From Lysobacter soli (GTDB lineage Bacteria; Pseudomonadota; Gammaproteobacteria; Xanthomonadales; Xanthomonadaceae), in contig NZ_QTJR01000004.1 in the NCBI RefSeq assembly GCF_003382285.1, positions 248,001-312,000 on the forward strand: a stretch of 64,000 bases of DNA. Reading direction: 5' to 3'. Both the position numbers and the translations under genes were made by a program. Below, one piece after another: positions 47,251 to 63,847 of this stretch. Each line of letters starts with the position of its first letter. Position 1 is the first letter of the stretch. The notes beneath the pieces are model-generated. The model was not told the origin of the DNA. It was given only the letters and a program-made list of their open reading frames with translations, and ran no database searches.

Positions 47251-50200
47251 ATGCCCCCGATGCCGACGTACGCCCGACCGCAACGCCGCCTCCTGACCTT
47301 CGCGCTCCTGTCCGCGCTCGCCACGCCCGCTTTCGCCGGCGGCAACTGCCAGCTGTACGACGACGCGAACAACCCGCTGCGCATCGACAGCACCGCAACA
47401 GGCGCAGACGCCTTCGCCTGCGGTCCCGACGCCAAGGCGTCCGGCTCCCGTTCGGTCGCCCTGGGCGACGAAACCACCGCCTCGGGCACGAACGCCATTG
47501 CAATCGGCTCGTGGATCGACCTCGACGGCGACGGCCAGGTCGATCCGGACGAGATCACGTGGGCGAAGGGCGACAACGCGACGGCCATCGGCGCGGCGTC
47601 GCAGGCCCTTGGAAACGGCGCCGTCGCCATCGGCGTTCGGGCCGTCGCCAAACCCGACAACAGCATCGCCATCGGCAACCAGTCGCAGACCCAGGCGCAG
47701 CGCACCACGACCACGACGACCACCACACAAGGTTCGCCGACCACCTCCACCACCACCGCACCGACACCGGCCAGCGGCAACCAGACCGGCAGCCTCGCCA
47801 TCGGCAACCAGGCCCGCACGAACGGCGCGAACAACATCGCCCTCGGCACCGGCGCGACCACGGAAATGGTGATCGCCGGCAGCACGACTTCGACCACCAA
47901 CGGCATCACCACGCGCGTACAGACGTCGCTTGCGGCCCCGGTGCAGAACGCCATCGCCATCGGCAACGGCGCACGCGCGAACGGCAACGGCACCATCGTG
48001 ATGGGCGCGAACGCACGCGCGGAGGCGAAGGTCGCCAGCCTGGTCATCGGCTGGGGCGGCCGCGGCGTGGTGTTCGATCCGGGTCCGGCGACCAACTCGA
48101 CCGTGATCGGTACCGGCGCCGCGTCGCAGGGCACCAGCAACGTCGTGATCGGCAACGGCGCGCAGACGATGGGCGACACGATCATGCCCATCACGGACGA
48201 CGACGGCCGTTACGTCCTCGAGCCCGGCACCGGCTACCGCACCTACGAGGCGCCGGTGCGGGACCAGTACAACACCGTCATCGGCTCCGGCGCGGCGGCC
48301 GTCTACAACTACGGCACCGCCATCGGCGCCAGCGCCATCGCGTACGGCAAGACGTCCACGGCCGTCGGCACATCGGCGTATGCCATCGCGTCCGGCTCGA
48401 CCGCGCTCGGCGGATACCTCGACTGGAACACGGCCTTCGGCGCCGCCCCGCAGCCGACGGCGGGCACGAGTTCCTACGGACGCGCCGTCGCCTCGGGACT
48501 GGGTTCGCAGGCGCTGGGGTCGGCTTCATACACGACCGCAAACTACGACACGGCGATCGGCCCAGCCGCGCTGACGAACGACCGCGATAGCGATCATCCA
48601 CCCGCGCCGGGCAGCGCGATTGGCGGTTATCGCAGCCTGGATCCGACCAACATCAACGGCGCGGTGGCGGTGGGCTTCCTGTCGCACGGCGAAGGCCACG
48701 CCAGCGTCGCGTTGGGCCTGCGCAGCCTGGCGCGCGATGCCGGCACCGTGGCGATCGGCGTCGACAGCGTCGCGTGGGGCGTCGACAGCCTTGCGCTGGG
48801 CAACGGCGCGCTGAGCACCTGGCGCAACGACATCGCTATCGGTGCAGGCGCGGAAGTCTGGGGCGGCAGTGGCACGAGCAGTACGGCGGTCGGCATGGGC
48901 GCGCACGTCGGCAACAGCGGCGGCGAAGACATTTCCAATGCGATGGCTTTCGGCAGCAACGCCGAGGCGATGTCCGACGACGCGGTCGCCTTCGGTCACG
49001 ATGCGTCCGCGGCCGGCATCGGCACGCTGGCCGTGGGCAGCTCGACACAGGCCGATGGCACCAACGCCGCCGCCATCGGCAACGGCGCGCAGGCGTTCGG
49101 CGACTACGCCACCGCGACGGGCGCCTATGCCTATGCCGGGGCCGGCAACGCCGTGGCCGTCGGCGCGAACGCCTTCGCGACCGACACCGCAAGCAGCGCG
49201 CTGGGCTTCAACGCGTTCGCCGGCGGCATCGAAAGCACCGCGGTCGGCAGCTATGCCGTCGCCGATTCCGCGGGCGCCACCGCGCTCGGCAGCGGGGCGT
49301 TGGCGCTGGCCGACGACAGCGTCGCGATCGGCGCGGGCGCCGTGGCCGATCGCGCCGGCACCGTGTCCGTCGGCTCGGCCGGCCACGAGCGCCAGATCGC
49401 CAACGTCGCCGCCGGCACGGAAGAGACCGATGCGGTCAACGTCGCGCAGCTCAACACGGCGATCGCGCAGTTCGACGACACGCTCGGTACGCTCGACGAC
49501 GCGGCGGTGAAGTACGACGACCCGGCCACACGCGACAAGGTCACGCTCGGCGGCACGACCGGTACGACGATCGCCAACCTGCACGCGGGCATCGTCGGAA
49601 CCGACGCCGTCAATGTCGAGCAGCTCAGCTCCGTGCTCGCCGGCTTCGGCGGCGGTGCGGCGTTCGACGCCAACGGGCTGATGACCGCGCCGACGTTCCA
49701 CCTGTTCGGCGCGCAGTACCACACGGTTGCGCAGGCGTTCGATGCGATCGACGCGGGAATCGCCGGCCTCGGCGATCGCCTCGCGGTCGTCGAAAACCAC
49801 CTCGGCGGTGCCCACAGCGACGTGCCCGTCGGCGCCGGCGCAGGCTTGCCGGTGGGCGAAAGCAGCGTCGCGATGAGCGCCAACGACACCGCCATCGGCA
49901 CCGGTGCATCGGTGCTGGCCGACGGCAGCACCGCGGTGGGCAGCAACGCCACGGTGGCCCTGCGCGCGGCGAATGCGGTGGCCGTCGGCGCCGACGCGAG
50001 CGTCAGCGCCGAATCGGGCACGGCCATCGGACAGGGCGCTTCAGCCACGGCCGACAATGCCGTCGCATTGGGCCACGGCGCGGTCGCTAACGAGGCCGAC
50101 ACCGTGTCGGTCGGCAACGCGCAGACGCAGCGTCGCGTCACGCAGGTCGCCGACGGCGTCAACGCGCACGACGCCACCAACGTGCAGCAGATGCAGGCCG

Positions 50201-61002: not shown

Positions 61003-61665
61003 ATGCGAATCCGCTCCCTCTGCGTCCTGCCGCTCGCCCTGGCGCTGTCCGCGCCGGCGTTCGCCGCCCAGGACATCGATAAAGTCAACGGCAGCATCAC
61101 CGTCGAAGCCGGCCAGACCGTCGGCGACCTGGAGACCGTCAACGGCTCCATCAAGATCGGCGCCGGCGCGCGCACCGGCAAGGCCGAAACCGTCAACGGC
61201 AGCATCACCGTCGCCGAGAACGTCGAGGCCGAAGGACTGGAAACGGTCAACGGCTCCATCCGCGTGGCGGGCAACGGCAAGCTGTCCAGCAAGCTGGAAA
61301 CCGTCAACGGCGGCATCTTCGTGGACCGGGGTGGCGACGTGCGCGGCGACATCGAAACGGTGAACGGCGCGATCGGCCTGGTCGACACCGACCTGTCCGG
61401 TGGCATCACCACGGTGAACGGCGACGTCACCGTCGGCGTGAATTCGCACGTGAAGGGCGGCATCCACTACACCAAGCCGAGCGGCTCGTGGTTCTCGTTC
61501 AACAAGCGCGACCCGAAGGTCATCATCGGGCCGAACGCGGTCGTCGAAGGCCCGCTGAACTTCGAGCGCAAGGTCGAGCTGTACGTGCACAGCACGGCGA
61601 AGGTCGGCCAGATCAGTGGCGCGACCGCGGTCCGGTTCGACGGTGCGACCCCGCCGGGGCAGTAA
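61003..61665 (+). CDS. Exported VNG-repeat beta-helix protein
   Basis: 220-residue exported protein with a signal peptide (MRIRSLCVLPLALALSAPAFA). It contains seven tandem units of 18-19 residues, each headed by VNGSI or a variant: KVNGSI, TVNGSI three times, TVNGGI, TVNGAI and TVNGDV, roughly from residue 27 to 155. The regular length and alternating hydrophobic pattern (SITVEAG, SIKIGAG, SITVAEN) indicate a right-handed beta helix. A cap region (VIIGPNAVVEGPLNFERKVELYV) resembles bactofilin and adhesin-like polymer proteins. It has no membrane anchor visible. Function is unknown. It ends just before the 21-bp array and its terminator. Confidence 0.85.
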   Translation: MRIRSLCVLPLALALSAPAFAAQDIDKVNGSITVEAGQTVGDLETVNGSIKIGAGARTGKAETVNGSITVAENVEAEGLETVNGSIRVAGNGKLSSKLETVNGGIFVDRGGDVRGDIETVNGAIGLVDTDLSGGITTVNGDVTVGVNSHVKGGIHYTKPSGSWFSFNKRDPKVIIGPNAVVEGPLNFERKVELYVHSTAKVGQISGATAVRFDGATPPGQ

Positions 61666-61706
61666 GCAGCGCAGACCTCGTAGAAAACCCTCGTCGAGTT
61701 CCAAGG

Positions 61707-61747
61707 ACTGGCGCGTCAGGCTTCGAGCCTGGCGCGCCAGTTTTTTT
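61707..61747 (+). terminator. Intrinsic terminator built from array units 1 and 2
   Basis: Left arm 61707-61722 (ACTGGCGCGTCAGGCT), TCG loop, right arm 61726-61741 with one U-G pair, then seven T residues. The stem is 16 bp. It stands 42 bp after the stop of the beta-helix gene. Confidence 0.92.
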
Positions 61748-61950
61748 GCGTGGCGCGCGAGTGTTCCGGGCTGGCGCGCCAGTCTCGGACACGGGCGTTC
61801 GGGTCTTTTTCACTCGCGCGCCAGTTCCTGAGCCTCGCGTTCCAGCCGCAAAGACTGGAGCGCCAGCCGAAATTGCTGACGATCGAGGCGGAATGACTGG
61901 CGCGCCAGCAGAAAAGACTGGCGATCCGCGCTCCGGGACTGGATCCGCGG
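61708..61950. repeat. 21-bp-period tandem array of 12-bp cores with 9-bp spacers
   Basis: Twelve cores begin at exactly 21-bp steps: 61708, 61729, 61750, 61771, 61792, 61813, 61834, 61855, 61876, 61897, 61918 and 61939. The consensus core is CTGGCGCGCCAG, a perfect palindrome, found exactly at 61729, 61771 and 61897. Even-numbered cores are near consensus as far as number 10. Cores 5 and 7 have CGTTC and cores 9 and 11 have CGATC at their centre, giving a 42-bp alternation. Spacers of 9 bp all differ (for example TTTTTTTGC, TGTTCCGGG, CCGCAAAGA, CAGAAAAGA). Not recognised as a described element. Confidence 0.9.
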
Positions 61951-62089
61951 CCCGCGGCGGGACGGTCCCGGCAAACTGCCGGACCATGCACGGTGACGAC
62001 GCGGCCGGCATGCCTAGAATGGGGTTCGCCTTCACGGCGGCCCCGCGCGGCGCGGGCTGCCGTGGGGCCTGGTCCATTCCGGAGGTCCC

Positions 62090-63847
62090 ATGTCCCGAGT
62101 TTCCCTGCTCAGCACGGCAGTGGCCGGCATCGTCGGCGCGATCGCGCTTACGGCCTGCTCCAAGCCCGCCGACGCGCCCAGCACCGCCACCCCGCAGACG
62201 CCCGCGGCAGCGCCGGCGACGGCCGACAACCATTCCTTCAACGACGCGATCAACGCCGCCGATTTCGCCCAGCACGTGAAGGTGCTGGCGTCGGACGAGT
62301 TCGAGGGTCGCGCGCCCGGCAGCGCCGGCGAAGAGAAGACCGTCCAGTACCTGGAAGCGCAGTTCAAGCGCATGGGCCTGAAGCCCGGCAACGGCGACAG
62401 CTACTTCCAGACCGTGCCGATGGTGGAAACCACGGCGGACGAGTCGACCACGCTGACCATCGACGCCAAGGGCAAGCCGCGCACGCTGAAGTTCGGCGAC
62501 GACATGGTCGTGGGCACGCGCACCGGCCGCGAGGAAGTGAAGGTCGACGGCAGCCAGCTCGTGTTCGTCGGCTACGGCGTCAACGCGCCCGAGCAGAACT
62601 GGAACGACTACGCCGGCGTCGACGTGAAGGGCAAGACGGTCGTCATGTTCGTCAACGATCCGGGCTTCCACAGCCAGGATCCGAAGCTCTTCGAAGGCAA
62701 GCGGATGACGTACTACGGCCGCTGGACGTACAAGTTCGAGGAGGCCGCCCGCCAGGGCGCCGCGGCGGCGATCATCATCCACGACACCGAGGGCGCATCC
62801 TACGGCTGGGATGTGGTCAAGAACTCGTGGTCGGGCGCGCAGTTCGACCTGCCGGCGAAGGACGATCCGGAACCGCGCCTGCCGGTGCAGGGCTGGATCA
62901 CCGGCGATGCCGCGCGCTCGCTGCTGGCCGACCTGGGCCAGAACCTCGACGAGCTCTACAAGGCCGCGAACAAGCCGGGCTTCAAGGCGATTCCGCTGGA
63001 CGGCAAGCTGTCGGTCGACCTGAAGAGCAAGACCAGCGAGAAGTCGTCGCGCAACGTCGTCGCGCTGCTGCCGGGCGCCAAGCGTCCTGACGAGGCGATC
63101 GTCTACATGGCGCATTGGGACCACCTGGGCAACCACGCCCATGAAGCCGACGAGCACGGCGGTGCCAGCGGCGGCGAGCCGCATGCCGACACGATCTACA
63201 ACGGCGCCATCGACAACGCGAGCGGCGTGGCGGGCATCCTCGAGATCGCCGAGGCCTTCAGCAAGCAGACGCCGCCGCCGGATCGCTCGCTGCTGTTCCT
63301 CGCCGTGACGCTGGAGGAATCGGGCCTGCTGGGCTCGAAGTATTACGTCGCGCATCCGACGATTCCGCTCAACAAGACCGTCGCCGTGATCAACCTCGAT
63401 GCGATGCCGGTGATCGGCAAGGCGAAGGACATGACGGTCGTCGGCTTCGGCAGCTCGGAGCTGGAAGACCTGCTCAAGACGCAGGCCGAAAGCCAGCAGC
63501 GCGTGCTGCACGCCGAGGCGACGCCGGAAGACGGCTTCTACTTCCGCTCCGATCACTTCAACTTCGCCAAGGCCGGCGTGCCGGCGCTGTACGCCAAGGG
63601 CGGCAGCGACCTGCTCGAAGGTGGCGTCGATGCGGGCCGCAAGGCCGAATCCGACTATCGCGACAACCGCTACCACAAGCCGGGCGACCAGTTCGATCCG
63701 TCGTGGAAGATGGACGGCGTGGTGCAGGACCTTGAGGCACTGTACGGCGTCGGCCGCACACTGGCCGGCGACGAGCAGTGGCCGAACTGGTACGAAGGCA
63801 ACGCCTTCCGCGGCGCGCACGACAAGCTCATGAAGTCGGCGAAGTAA
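62090..63847 (+). CDS. M28-family metallopeptidase lipoprotein
   Basis: 585-residue exported zinc aminopeptidase. A lipobox LTAC with C23 suggests anchoring in the membrane. A PA domain is inserted (~165-300: LVFVGYGVNAPEQNW, GKTVVMFVNDPG, AAAAIIIHD). Zinc and catalytic residues: H342 and D344 (MAHWDHLG), D375 (NGAIDNASG), E409/E410 (LEESGLLGS) and the late His in FYFRSDHFNFAKAGVP. It would release N-terminal residues from peptides outside the inner membrane. GGAGG precedes the ATG. Its place fits the peptidase-rich character of the window. Confidence 0.95.
   Translation: MSRVSLLSTAVAGIVGAIALTACSKPADAPSTATPQTPAAAPATADNHSFNDAINAADFAQHVKVLASDEFEGRAPGSAGEEKTVQYLEAQFKRMGLKPGNGDSYFQTVPMVETTADESTTLTIDAKGKPRTLKFGDDMVVGTRTGREEVKVDGSQLVFVGYGVNAPEQNWNDYAGVDVKGKTVVMFVNDPGFHSQDPKLFEGKRMTYYGRWTYKFEEAARQGAAAAIIIHDTEGASYGWDVVKNSWSGAQFDLPAKDDPEPRLPVQGWITGDAARSLLADLGQNLDELYKAANKPGFKAIPLDGKLSVDLKSKTSEKSSRNVVALLPGAKRPDEAIVYMAHWDHLGNHAHEADEHGGASGGEPHADTIYNGAIDNASGVAGILEIAEAFSKQTPPPDRSLLFLAVTLEESGLLGSKYYVAHPTIPLNKTVAVINLDAMPVIGKAKDMTVVGFGSSELEDLLKTQAESQQRVLHAEATPEDGFYFRSDHFNFAKAGVPALYAKGGSDLLEGGVDAGRKAESDYRDNRYHKPGDQFDPSWKMDGVVQDLEALYGVGRTLAGDEQWPNWYEGNAFRGAHDKLMKSAK

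Follow-up and report, generated by a model that had tools for sequence, protein, structure and literature searches.

The window array and its neighbouring genes

The window analysed here is a 64,000-nucleotide stretch of the Lysobacter soli genome (G000, which together with its 11 congeners, G001–G011, makes up a set of 12 genus genomes). Two genes on the + strand frame the feature under study. The upstream one, at 61003–61665, encodes a 220-residue protein with internal repeats and without a Pfam match at E≤0.001, and its stop codon lies 43 bp 5' of a tandem repeat array. The downstream one, at 62090–63847, encodes an M28 peptidase with orthologues in all 12 genus genomes, which were used for the site comparison described below. 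The peptidase gene is preceded by a promoter-like site (GTGACG / TAGAAT, 61993–62020, +), whose TAGAATGG is found again in the 11 congeners that do not carry the window array.

The array itself comprises eleven 12-bp cores with 9-bp spacers at an exact 21-bp step (61708–61929, neither strand being assigned), and a weak twelfth core (CTGGATCCGCGG, 61939–61950) stands in register with it. Scored against CTGGCGCGCCAG, cores 1 to 12 match at 11, 12, 10, 12, 7, 11, 9, 11, 8, 12, 8 and 7 of 12 positions, respectively, the weak members being the fifth (61792) and the twelfth (61939). A chain parser that permits steps of 14 to 49 bp and favours 21 returned 11 units ending at 61929, with ten of ten steps equal to 21, and returned no array in window positions 1–60000 or in three block shuffles of that region. 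The sequence-only reading had described twelve cores without a single slip in spacing; the spacing is real over the ten steps that join eleven cores, but the twelfth, with its 7 of 12 matches, falls outside the parsed chain. Between units of the array the cores are identical at a mean of 8.7 of 12 positions and the spacers at 2.8 of 9, which is near-random.

The self-match at lag 21 reaches 62 of 105 at the array, compared with window-wide maxima of 48 at lag 20 and 46 at lag 22. Coding-like repeats at 48666–49082 also score 61–62 at lag 21, and lag alone therefore does not single the array out; the repeats of this region (48650–49200) resemble coding DNA with a seven-codon period and look YadA-head-like. 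TRF splits the array into two stretches (61708–61783 and 61842–61923), each with a period of 21. Single cores with up to two mismatches are by themselves not rare in the window, where 30 are found against 19.5 expected, a number as high being reached in 2 of 100 shuffles.

In the MFE fold, units 1 and 2 form a terminator-like hairpin 3' of the upstream gene (61703–61747, +) with 20 pairs, 15 of them in its GC-rich part, and a 3-nt loop; the outer five pairs consume part of the T7 run at 61741–61747. A consensus scanner missed this hairpin and gave 61784–61803 instead, with 1.1 sites expected by chance. Units 1 and 2 are the only part of the window array in which a GC-rich hairpin is followed by a U-tract and, judging from the fold, they may terminate the upstream gene. 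The region 61690–61965 as a whole folds with z = −6.1 on the + strand and −5.1 on the − strand, a low fold energy that follows from its repeated palindromes.

A dispersed family in two sequence types

The window array is one copy of a dispersed, intergenic, strand-neutral family of DNA arrays in the genus. Further arrays elsewhere in the genome, which the sequence-only reading had proposed to look for, are indeed present: L. soli has at least eleven with a modal 21-bp step, the window array among them. R1, a 54-nt sequence-only profile built from 18 three-core stretches of this type (A-type), gave 56 matches at E≤0.1 in L. soli, mostly in five arrays (C22, which is the window array, C12, C14, C2 and C1). 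Within the genus it matched three of the 12 genomes at E≤1e-4 (G000, G009 and G003), and G009 holds at least 12 A-type arrays. Across 395 family genomes, with strict filters and 14 candidates scored per genome, R1 matched 11 at E≤1e-5. On reading, arrays were confirmed in eight of these (G000, G009, G003, G021, G134, G267, G315 and G295), and no array was seen at the R1 matches in G333, G136 and G081; G333 has a chain of four cores that includes an 18-bp step, which was left out of the array count. The arrays of G315 and G295 are irregular, with some steps of 17, 19 and 25 bp (17 and 25 add up to 42). All 36 steps in G134 equal 21; most of its cores read GTSGAGCGCSAG, or else CTSGCGCTCGAC and GTGGCGCTCGAC, and are separated by spacers like TCTTTTAGA or TCTAAAAGA. 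At E≤0.01, R1 matched 30 of 59 relatives, mostly with 1–3 matches near 1e-3, which we took as background.

A second sequence type (B-type) occurs 5' of the sRNA-Xcc1 gene in G004 and G011, where it reads GCTCGGCGTGCCGAGC-AAATA-GCTCCGTCATCCGAGC-TCGGA at 21 bp per unit. R2, a profile of B-type arrays, reached E≤1e-5 in nine of the 12 genus genomes, among them G001, G002 and G007, in which R1 finds nothing at E≤1e-4. Taken jointly, the two types occur in nine of the 12 genus genomes, and G006, G008 and G010 match neither profile; A-type arrays are found in other genera as well.

Pooling 56 A-type units from G000 and 109 from G009 gave the profile GMCTSG-N4-CSAGKC followed by five A/T-richer positions, and the B-type dyad reads GCTCGG-N4-CCGAGC. 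The unit in the pooled profile thus consists of a dyad-symmetric site of 16 bp and a linker of 5 bp that is usually richer in A/T, which brings a dyad round to the same helix face about every 21 bp. The A-type profile nearly equals its reverse complement, although single cores are often not palindromic. In the pooled profile the spacers are compositionally constrained, with K at position 1, C at 2, G at 8 and M at 9. Core sequences are diverse (38 distinct cores in 52 interior units of G000), and core identity is about the same within as between arrays in G000 (8.5 v 8.4 of 12) and 8.4 v 7.9 in G009.

Of the 390 interior cells at core positions 3 and 10, 387 hold G or C and three hold A or T; the 162 changes from consensus at these positions include no transitions, G and C swapping freely. 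By comparison, A/T occupies 32 of 390 cells at positions 4 and 9 (p = 2e-7; with the 122 distinct cores, 9e-6), and positions 1 and 12 have it in 15 of 390 (p = 0.007). Adding six units that the parser had skipped changes the count at positions 3 and 10 little, to 4 of 402. The near-absence of A/T and the lack of transitions in 162 changes speak for selection on a dyad site; against it stand the T that G003 has at core position 3 and the non-independence of the core cells, as conversion spreads variants between units.

The modal step is 21 bp in both types. G000 and G009 together supplied 17 A-type arrays, in which 174 of 212 steps equal 21, 32 equal 22, six are double and none is 20. In 25 parsed B-type loci, 307 of 340 steps equal 21, 19 equal 22, two equal 20 and 12 take other values (L318 duplicates L182, whose steps are thus counted twice, and no chain could be parsed in L350 and L328). 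Array edges account for one of the two 20-bp steps and for several steps of 28, 26 and 19 bp. With L120 and L121 counted as one, a 22-bp step occurs in twelve A-type arrays and a 20-bp step in none (p = 5e-4 on equal chances of +1 and −1). In 20 further loci around R2 matches, the best self-match lag in the range 10–63 was 42, 21, 63 or 43. Many arrays alternate two kinds of unit, which appears as an excess of lag-2 identity and a higher-order period of 42 bp. The lag-7 match is 0.28 (G000) and 0.29 (G009) in A-type arrays, against 0.27–0.28 expected, and 0.47 in B-type arrays, against 0.29 expected; B-type arrays thus have a 7-bp sub-period and A-type arrays have none, and the 21 of the A-type is therefore not three times seven. 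GC content oscillates most strongly at 21 bp, with a 10.5-bp harmonic of 1.42 in B and 0.33 in A. The proposal that spacing is under selection gains from the modal 21 in both families and from the lack of 20-bp steps in the A-type, and loses from a 7-bp gap in one B-type array, described below.

A scan of a wider collection for two exact adjacent cores returned 40 stretches, mostly single pairs that are probably due to chance; one, in Pseudoxanthomonas daejeonensis (L033), is a true array. The same scan led to actinobacterial arrays of 21-bp units in Amycolatopsis (L021, 2750–2866; L025, 4059–4133) and Prauserella (L047, 7456–7572), whose cores resemble CTCGCGCGYSAG or CTGGCGCGCGAG and whose spacers, for example AACGTACGA or TCCCCCGCT, are almost constant. 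Since the scan pattern fixed the 21-bp step, the pitch of these three is no independent evidence. Two more arrays with a 21-bp step and other unit types lie in G003, near matches to the sRNA-Xcc1 region (L186, 1833–2010; L199, 1990–2160). A lag survey blind to sequence (three times 400 kb, plus the window) neither adds nor excludes more arrays. The list it gave includes known arrays, and coding DNA inflates those lags that are divisible by 3; the nine lag-21 regions inspected by eye resembled heptamer SSRs, repeats in coding sequence or proline-rich coding DNA.

Placement between genes and turnover at orthologous sites

With a simple codon-based gene caller, 30 of 41 loci had both neighbours called within 600 bp; six of the others are far from any called gene and five are without a call. 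In none of the 30 loci does a called gene run across the array. The neighbours are co-directional in 15, convergent in nine and divergent in six, which represent 3 or 4 distinct sites; among these divergent loci, L131, L345 and L358 are one site and L132 and L353 another. Co-directional arrays are closer to the 3' end in 13 of 15 cases, and arrays lie at a median of 76 bp from 3' ends and of 172 bp from 5' ends, a placement that mere tolerance would give too. The neighbouring genes are unrelated, encoding a thiolase, a semialdehyde dehydrogenase and FimV, PRA isomerase, RF3, a GST, ABC transporters and the M28 peptidase. No shared theme emerged from a scan of 39 proteins at or near arrays, in which a LysR regulator and an HTH/WYL regulator each appeared once. 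An operator for a single regulator was rejected on this ground and because L. soli has no isolated exact sites beyond the arrays, all nine exact cores outside them lying within long open frames.

Some arrays lie about 220–250 bp from copies of sRNA-Xcc1 (RF02221), in G000 (L005, 3412–3500), G009 (two copies; L120, 3451–3536, and L121, 3446–3531) and G003 (L137, 2549–2634). The DNA around sRNA-Xcc1 has matches in 10 of the 12 genus genomes, often in several copies. GTAG-type palindromes (CCCGGGTAAGCGAAGCGCACCCGGG; GTAGCCCGGGTAAGCGAAGCGCACCCGGG and variants) are separate elements that adjoin several arrays and at some sRNA-Xcc1 sites occupy the array's place; they were seen at L182, L183, L184, L187, L120, L121, L123, L124, L128 and L137.

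The arrays come and go among related species, and the same intergenic sites are re-used with other sequence families. At the window site only L. soli has an array; in the other 11 genomes the flanks are recognisable and the flanking genes are 102–221 bp apart. The sequence-only reading had listed absence in close relatives as a point against function, and at this site the array is absent from 11 of 11 congeners. At the thiolase site, G000 and G009 both have arrays, made of unlike units, and seven comparable genomes have none (in three, the neighbour gene was not located). At the RF3 site, an A-type array in G009 corresponds to B-type arrays in G000 and G007, with seven genomes having the same neighbours and no array, and two having a different neighbour. 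L128 (A, G009) and L343 (B, G000) occupy one site in this manner, as do L126 (A, G009) and L356 (B, G004); arrays of the same family share a site in the pairs L119 and L357, L132 and L353, and L117 and L130. Three of the 11 L. soli arrays (L117, L343 and L345) share both flanks with an array of G009, where 0.08 would be expected for 19 G009 arrays (16 parsed, L350, which gave no chain, and two known as R2 hits alone) and an assumed 2500 intergenic regions. The match of a fourth, L005, to L120 covers the adjacent flank on one side and a block at a distance of 2.5 kb. The refilling of sites fits functional equivalence of the families, but may equally reflect ancestry or a small number of tolerant places.

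Within sites, turnover is mostly by whole units. At the sRNA-Xcc1 site, G004 and G011, which are about 98–99% identical in the surrounding sequence, differ by exactly one 42-bp double unit. L120 and L121, both in G009, are separated by gaps of 22 and 21 bp and also, in a weak unit at the edge, by one of 2 bp; their substitutions number 16 of 154 in cores, 21 of 109 in spacers and 90 of 714 in flanks, so that cores change less than spacers and not clearly less than flanks. The pitch can break by one heptad: L351 and L355, in G004 and G011, have flanks at least 99% identical and differ by a 7-bp gap within a B-type array that turns a 42-bp double step into 35. The earlier suggestion that indels between units would mark a neutral minisatellite is thus answered in part, the gaps being mostly of whole units (42, 22 and 21 bp), with the 2-bp edge gap and the 7-bp gap as the other side. 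Between different arrays the order of units is hardly conserved, the best-diagonal match being weakly above shuffles (z>3 in 5 of 272 comparisons).

The M28 peptidase gene of L. soli is 92% identical in nucleotides to those of G001, G002 and G007, which have no array at the window site. Because the window spacers match at only 2.8 of 9 positions, near chance, the array is unlikely to have been built up by simple local duplication since those species separated. The units differ more than the orthologous genes of array-less species, which is hard to square with simple decay in place; gene identity set against unit divergence is a rough yardstick, as intergenic DNA diverges faster. Of the simple alternative first offered, a decaying minisatellite, decay in place thus fits poorly, and a minisatellite of fast turnover stays alive.

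Interpretation and comparison with known systems

Our tentative preference is for fast-turnover intergenic repeats held, at the DNA level, to a half-site and a pitch, perhaps to serve a dimeric protein that binds or wraps DNA. A DNA-level constraint best accounts for the facts that two families share a step of 21, that 20-bp steps are rare, that positions 3 and 10 lack A/T almost entirely and that the arrays are neutral to strand. Their letters vary by species and the step remains mostly 21, or two helix turns, which suggests that it is the spacing that is kept and that the DNA is bound or shaped. Half-site and pitch would be held because each unit docks such a protein, possibly of a nucleoid-associated or topological class, as for BIMEs, bound in a row along one helix face. 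Amplification would proceed by ordinary repeat slippage or recombination, and insertion would be tolerated chiefly 3' of stop codons. Against this reading count the lack of exact isolated cores in L. soli, the unrelated neighbours, the three of 12 genus genomes that match neither profile, the window site that is empty in all but L. soli, the 7-bp break in pitch between G004 and G011, and the dependence between some half-site positions given below.

We regard a neutral or selfish minisatellite as a near-equal rival, likewise a little less than an even chance. Slippage and unequal recombination would add or remove DNA in steps of 21, 42 and sometimes 7 bp, conversion would homogenise the units, arrays would survive mainly 3' of stop codons and the 21-bp step would be a relic of the founding unit. 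The indels described above are of this kind, both the exact 42-bp change in unit number and the 7-bp change between G004 and G011, and the 22- and 21-bp gaps, with the 2-bp edge gap, between L120 and L121. The 42-bp higher-order period with its lag-2 identity excess, the patchy presence (11 of 395 family genomes by R1 at E≤1e-5, three of them without an array) and the position of 13 of 15 co-directional arrays nearer a 3' end also agree with it, and the GGGAATC heptamer repeats of Xanthomonas are likewise found 3' of stop codons, from the parts of that report consulted (PMC4692102). It accounts less readily for a modal step of 21 shared by A and B despite their differing internal structure, for the scarcity of 20-bp steps (none in 17 A-type arrays, 2 of 340 in B) and of A/T at positions 3 and 10, and for window units that, by the rough yardstick above, have diverged (cores 8.7 of 12, spacers 2.8 of 9) beyond orthologous genes of 92% identity.

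A stronger form of the constraint reading, which we consider rather unlikely, is that the arrays would be helically phased 'landing ladders' kept by bacteria of this family at given intergenic sites, functionally equivalent even with their sequence replaced wholesale (A for B at one site), in which the pitch rather than the sequence is heritable and a putative nucleoid or topology protein co-evolves. Should selection see the pitch, the arrays would amount to a natural experiment on DNA-level architecture, with the same site and step and different letters within one genus, and the question of bound scaffold versus tolerated junk, as it arises for REPs and heptamers, would become directly testable. 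If they are neutral, they would offer a good model of very fast turnover at nearly strict unit length.

It is improbable that the arrays are tandem transcription terminators or 3'-UTR hairpins, in which adjacent cores pair and the next spacer serves as U-tract. The hairpin of window units 1 and 2 with its T7 run, the fold z-scores of −6.1 (+) and −5.1 (−) and the tendency of arrays to lie 3' of stops are in keeping with such a role, but low fold energy follows from repeated palindromes in any case, and divergent genes flank six of the 30 arrays, at 3 or 4 distinct sites. In the gene-strand spacers of 12 arrays classed as co-directional, four-T runs and four-A runs are equally frequent (13 each); the gene-proximal half has an excess of T (159 T v 129 A) and the distal half does not (140 v 174; p = 0.011). 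Termination was thus rejected as a family-wide role, T-runs being independent of the gene strand despite the weak proximal T excess.

RNA stems were rejected as an explanation of the family, as there is no covariation of adjacent cores, of core halves or of halves across linkers. In A-type arrays no covariation was found between adjacent cores (lag 1), although lag-2 pairing is slightly raised in G009 (7.87 v 7.72, p = 0.039). No complementarity beyond permutation was found within cores or across linkers in A or B, as expected for DNA half-sites and not for a stem. The departures from independence all point away from complementarity: position 3 with position 10 in G000 (p = 0.016; 1.0 in G009) and, in G009, position 10 with the next position 3 (p = 0.002) and position 5 with position 8 (p = 0.001).

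Still less probable is the movement of a ready-made array, whether as a mobile element or through recombination between loci. The window site, whose flanks are recognisable in the 11 of 12 genomes that have no array there, the copying of one array with its flanks within G009 (L120 and L121) and the refilling of one site by another family would suit such movement. However, no target-site duplication or element ends were seen by eye in the window comparison, the weak match of unit order between arrays (5 of 272 at z>3) argues against it, and L120 and L121 may represent a duplication of the sRNA-Xcc1 locus.

Least probable of all, and very doubtful, is a TIGR-type guide-RNA array with 9-nt spacers between short repeats, as the sequence-only reading had entertained: despite the 12-bp repeat, 9-bp spacer and 42-bp alternation of two units, and a CTGG...CCAG core that includes UG and CCA, the Nop domain (PF01798) was matched in none of the 12 genus genomes (controls were positive in 4 of 14 named genomes, all archaea, and the profile may miss distant Tas), the repeats are not constant and lose UG in CTCG variants (position 3 = C), the spacers are compositionally constrained in the pooled profile, there are many arrays per genome, and no effector was found among the scanned neighbouring proteins. 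A CRISPR array, with constant repeats of 24–48 bp, unique spacers and cas genes, does not agree with the 21-bp unit and the variable cores.

The constraint reading invites comparison with plasmid iterons and tandem operator arrays, in which protein sites recur as direct repeats roughly every two helical turns. Our arrays are likewise direct repeats at about that distance, with putative sites, but unlike iterons they occur in many dispersed copies at unrelated genes, and no initiator or partition gene was found among the scanned proteins neighbouring them.

We did not recognise this family of arrays in the mostly open-access literature on bacterial repeats and TIGR arrays that we searched, and found no description of it in the parts consulted of PMC6344855, PMC12045711, PMC3733652, PMC6379681, PMC12306157 and PMC4692102. 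TIGR arrays are described, in the sections consulted, as dual repeats of 8–12 nt with 9-nt spacers (PMC12045711). The short repeats, variable 9-nt spacers and partial alternation of two units are alike, but our arrays are dispersed in many copies and are without a Nop match, and they do not have the constant repeats with box C (CCA) and box D (UG) and the free spacers of TIGR arrays.

The GGGAATC heptamer arrays of Xanthomonas, as far as the excerpts of the report go, consist of a 7-bp G-rich unit described as quadruplex-forming, lie on average 28 nt from the preceding ORF and 160 nt from the next, and for the most part occupy corresponding intergenic positions in two species, where their length and sequence vary (PMC4692102). 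Like them, as they appear in those excerpts, our arrays are dispersed, tandem, mostly intergenic, near the preceding ORF and on either strand; unlike them, A-type arrays have no 7-bp period and are built of a dyad-symmetric 16+5 unit. A heptamer origin holds at most for B, which has the 7-bp sub-period, as the lag-7 match of the A-type is at expectation. Long heptamer SSRs that resemble those of Xanthomonas, (TTCCCGA)n and (GGGAATC/GGGAAGC)n, are present in G001, separate from the arrays (C1:263929–264230, L265; C1:341964–342290, L269).

With REPs and BIMEs the arrays share, on the portions of the reports consulted, a palindromic, extragenic and repeated nature (PMC3733652, PMC6379681). Most REPs are there given a GTAG or CGTC tag, and REP dimers a variable spacing (PMC3733652, PMC6379681); the A-type unit profile has no constant tag, and the pitch is near-fixed at 21 bp. 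In Escherichia coli, BIME-2 contain gyrase cleavage sites, which are over-represented in them, and the gyrase motif shows a GC oscillation of 10.75 bp over 130 bp, again according to the sections seen (PMC6379681). Gyrase is thus a concrete candidate binder by analogy, and the fit is partial, since our arrays oscillate at 21 bp, with the 10.5-bp harmonic in B but hardly in A.
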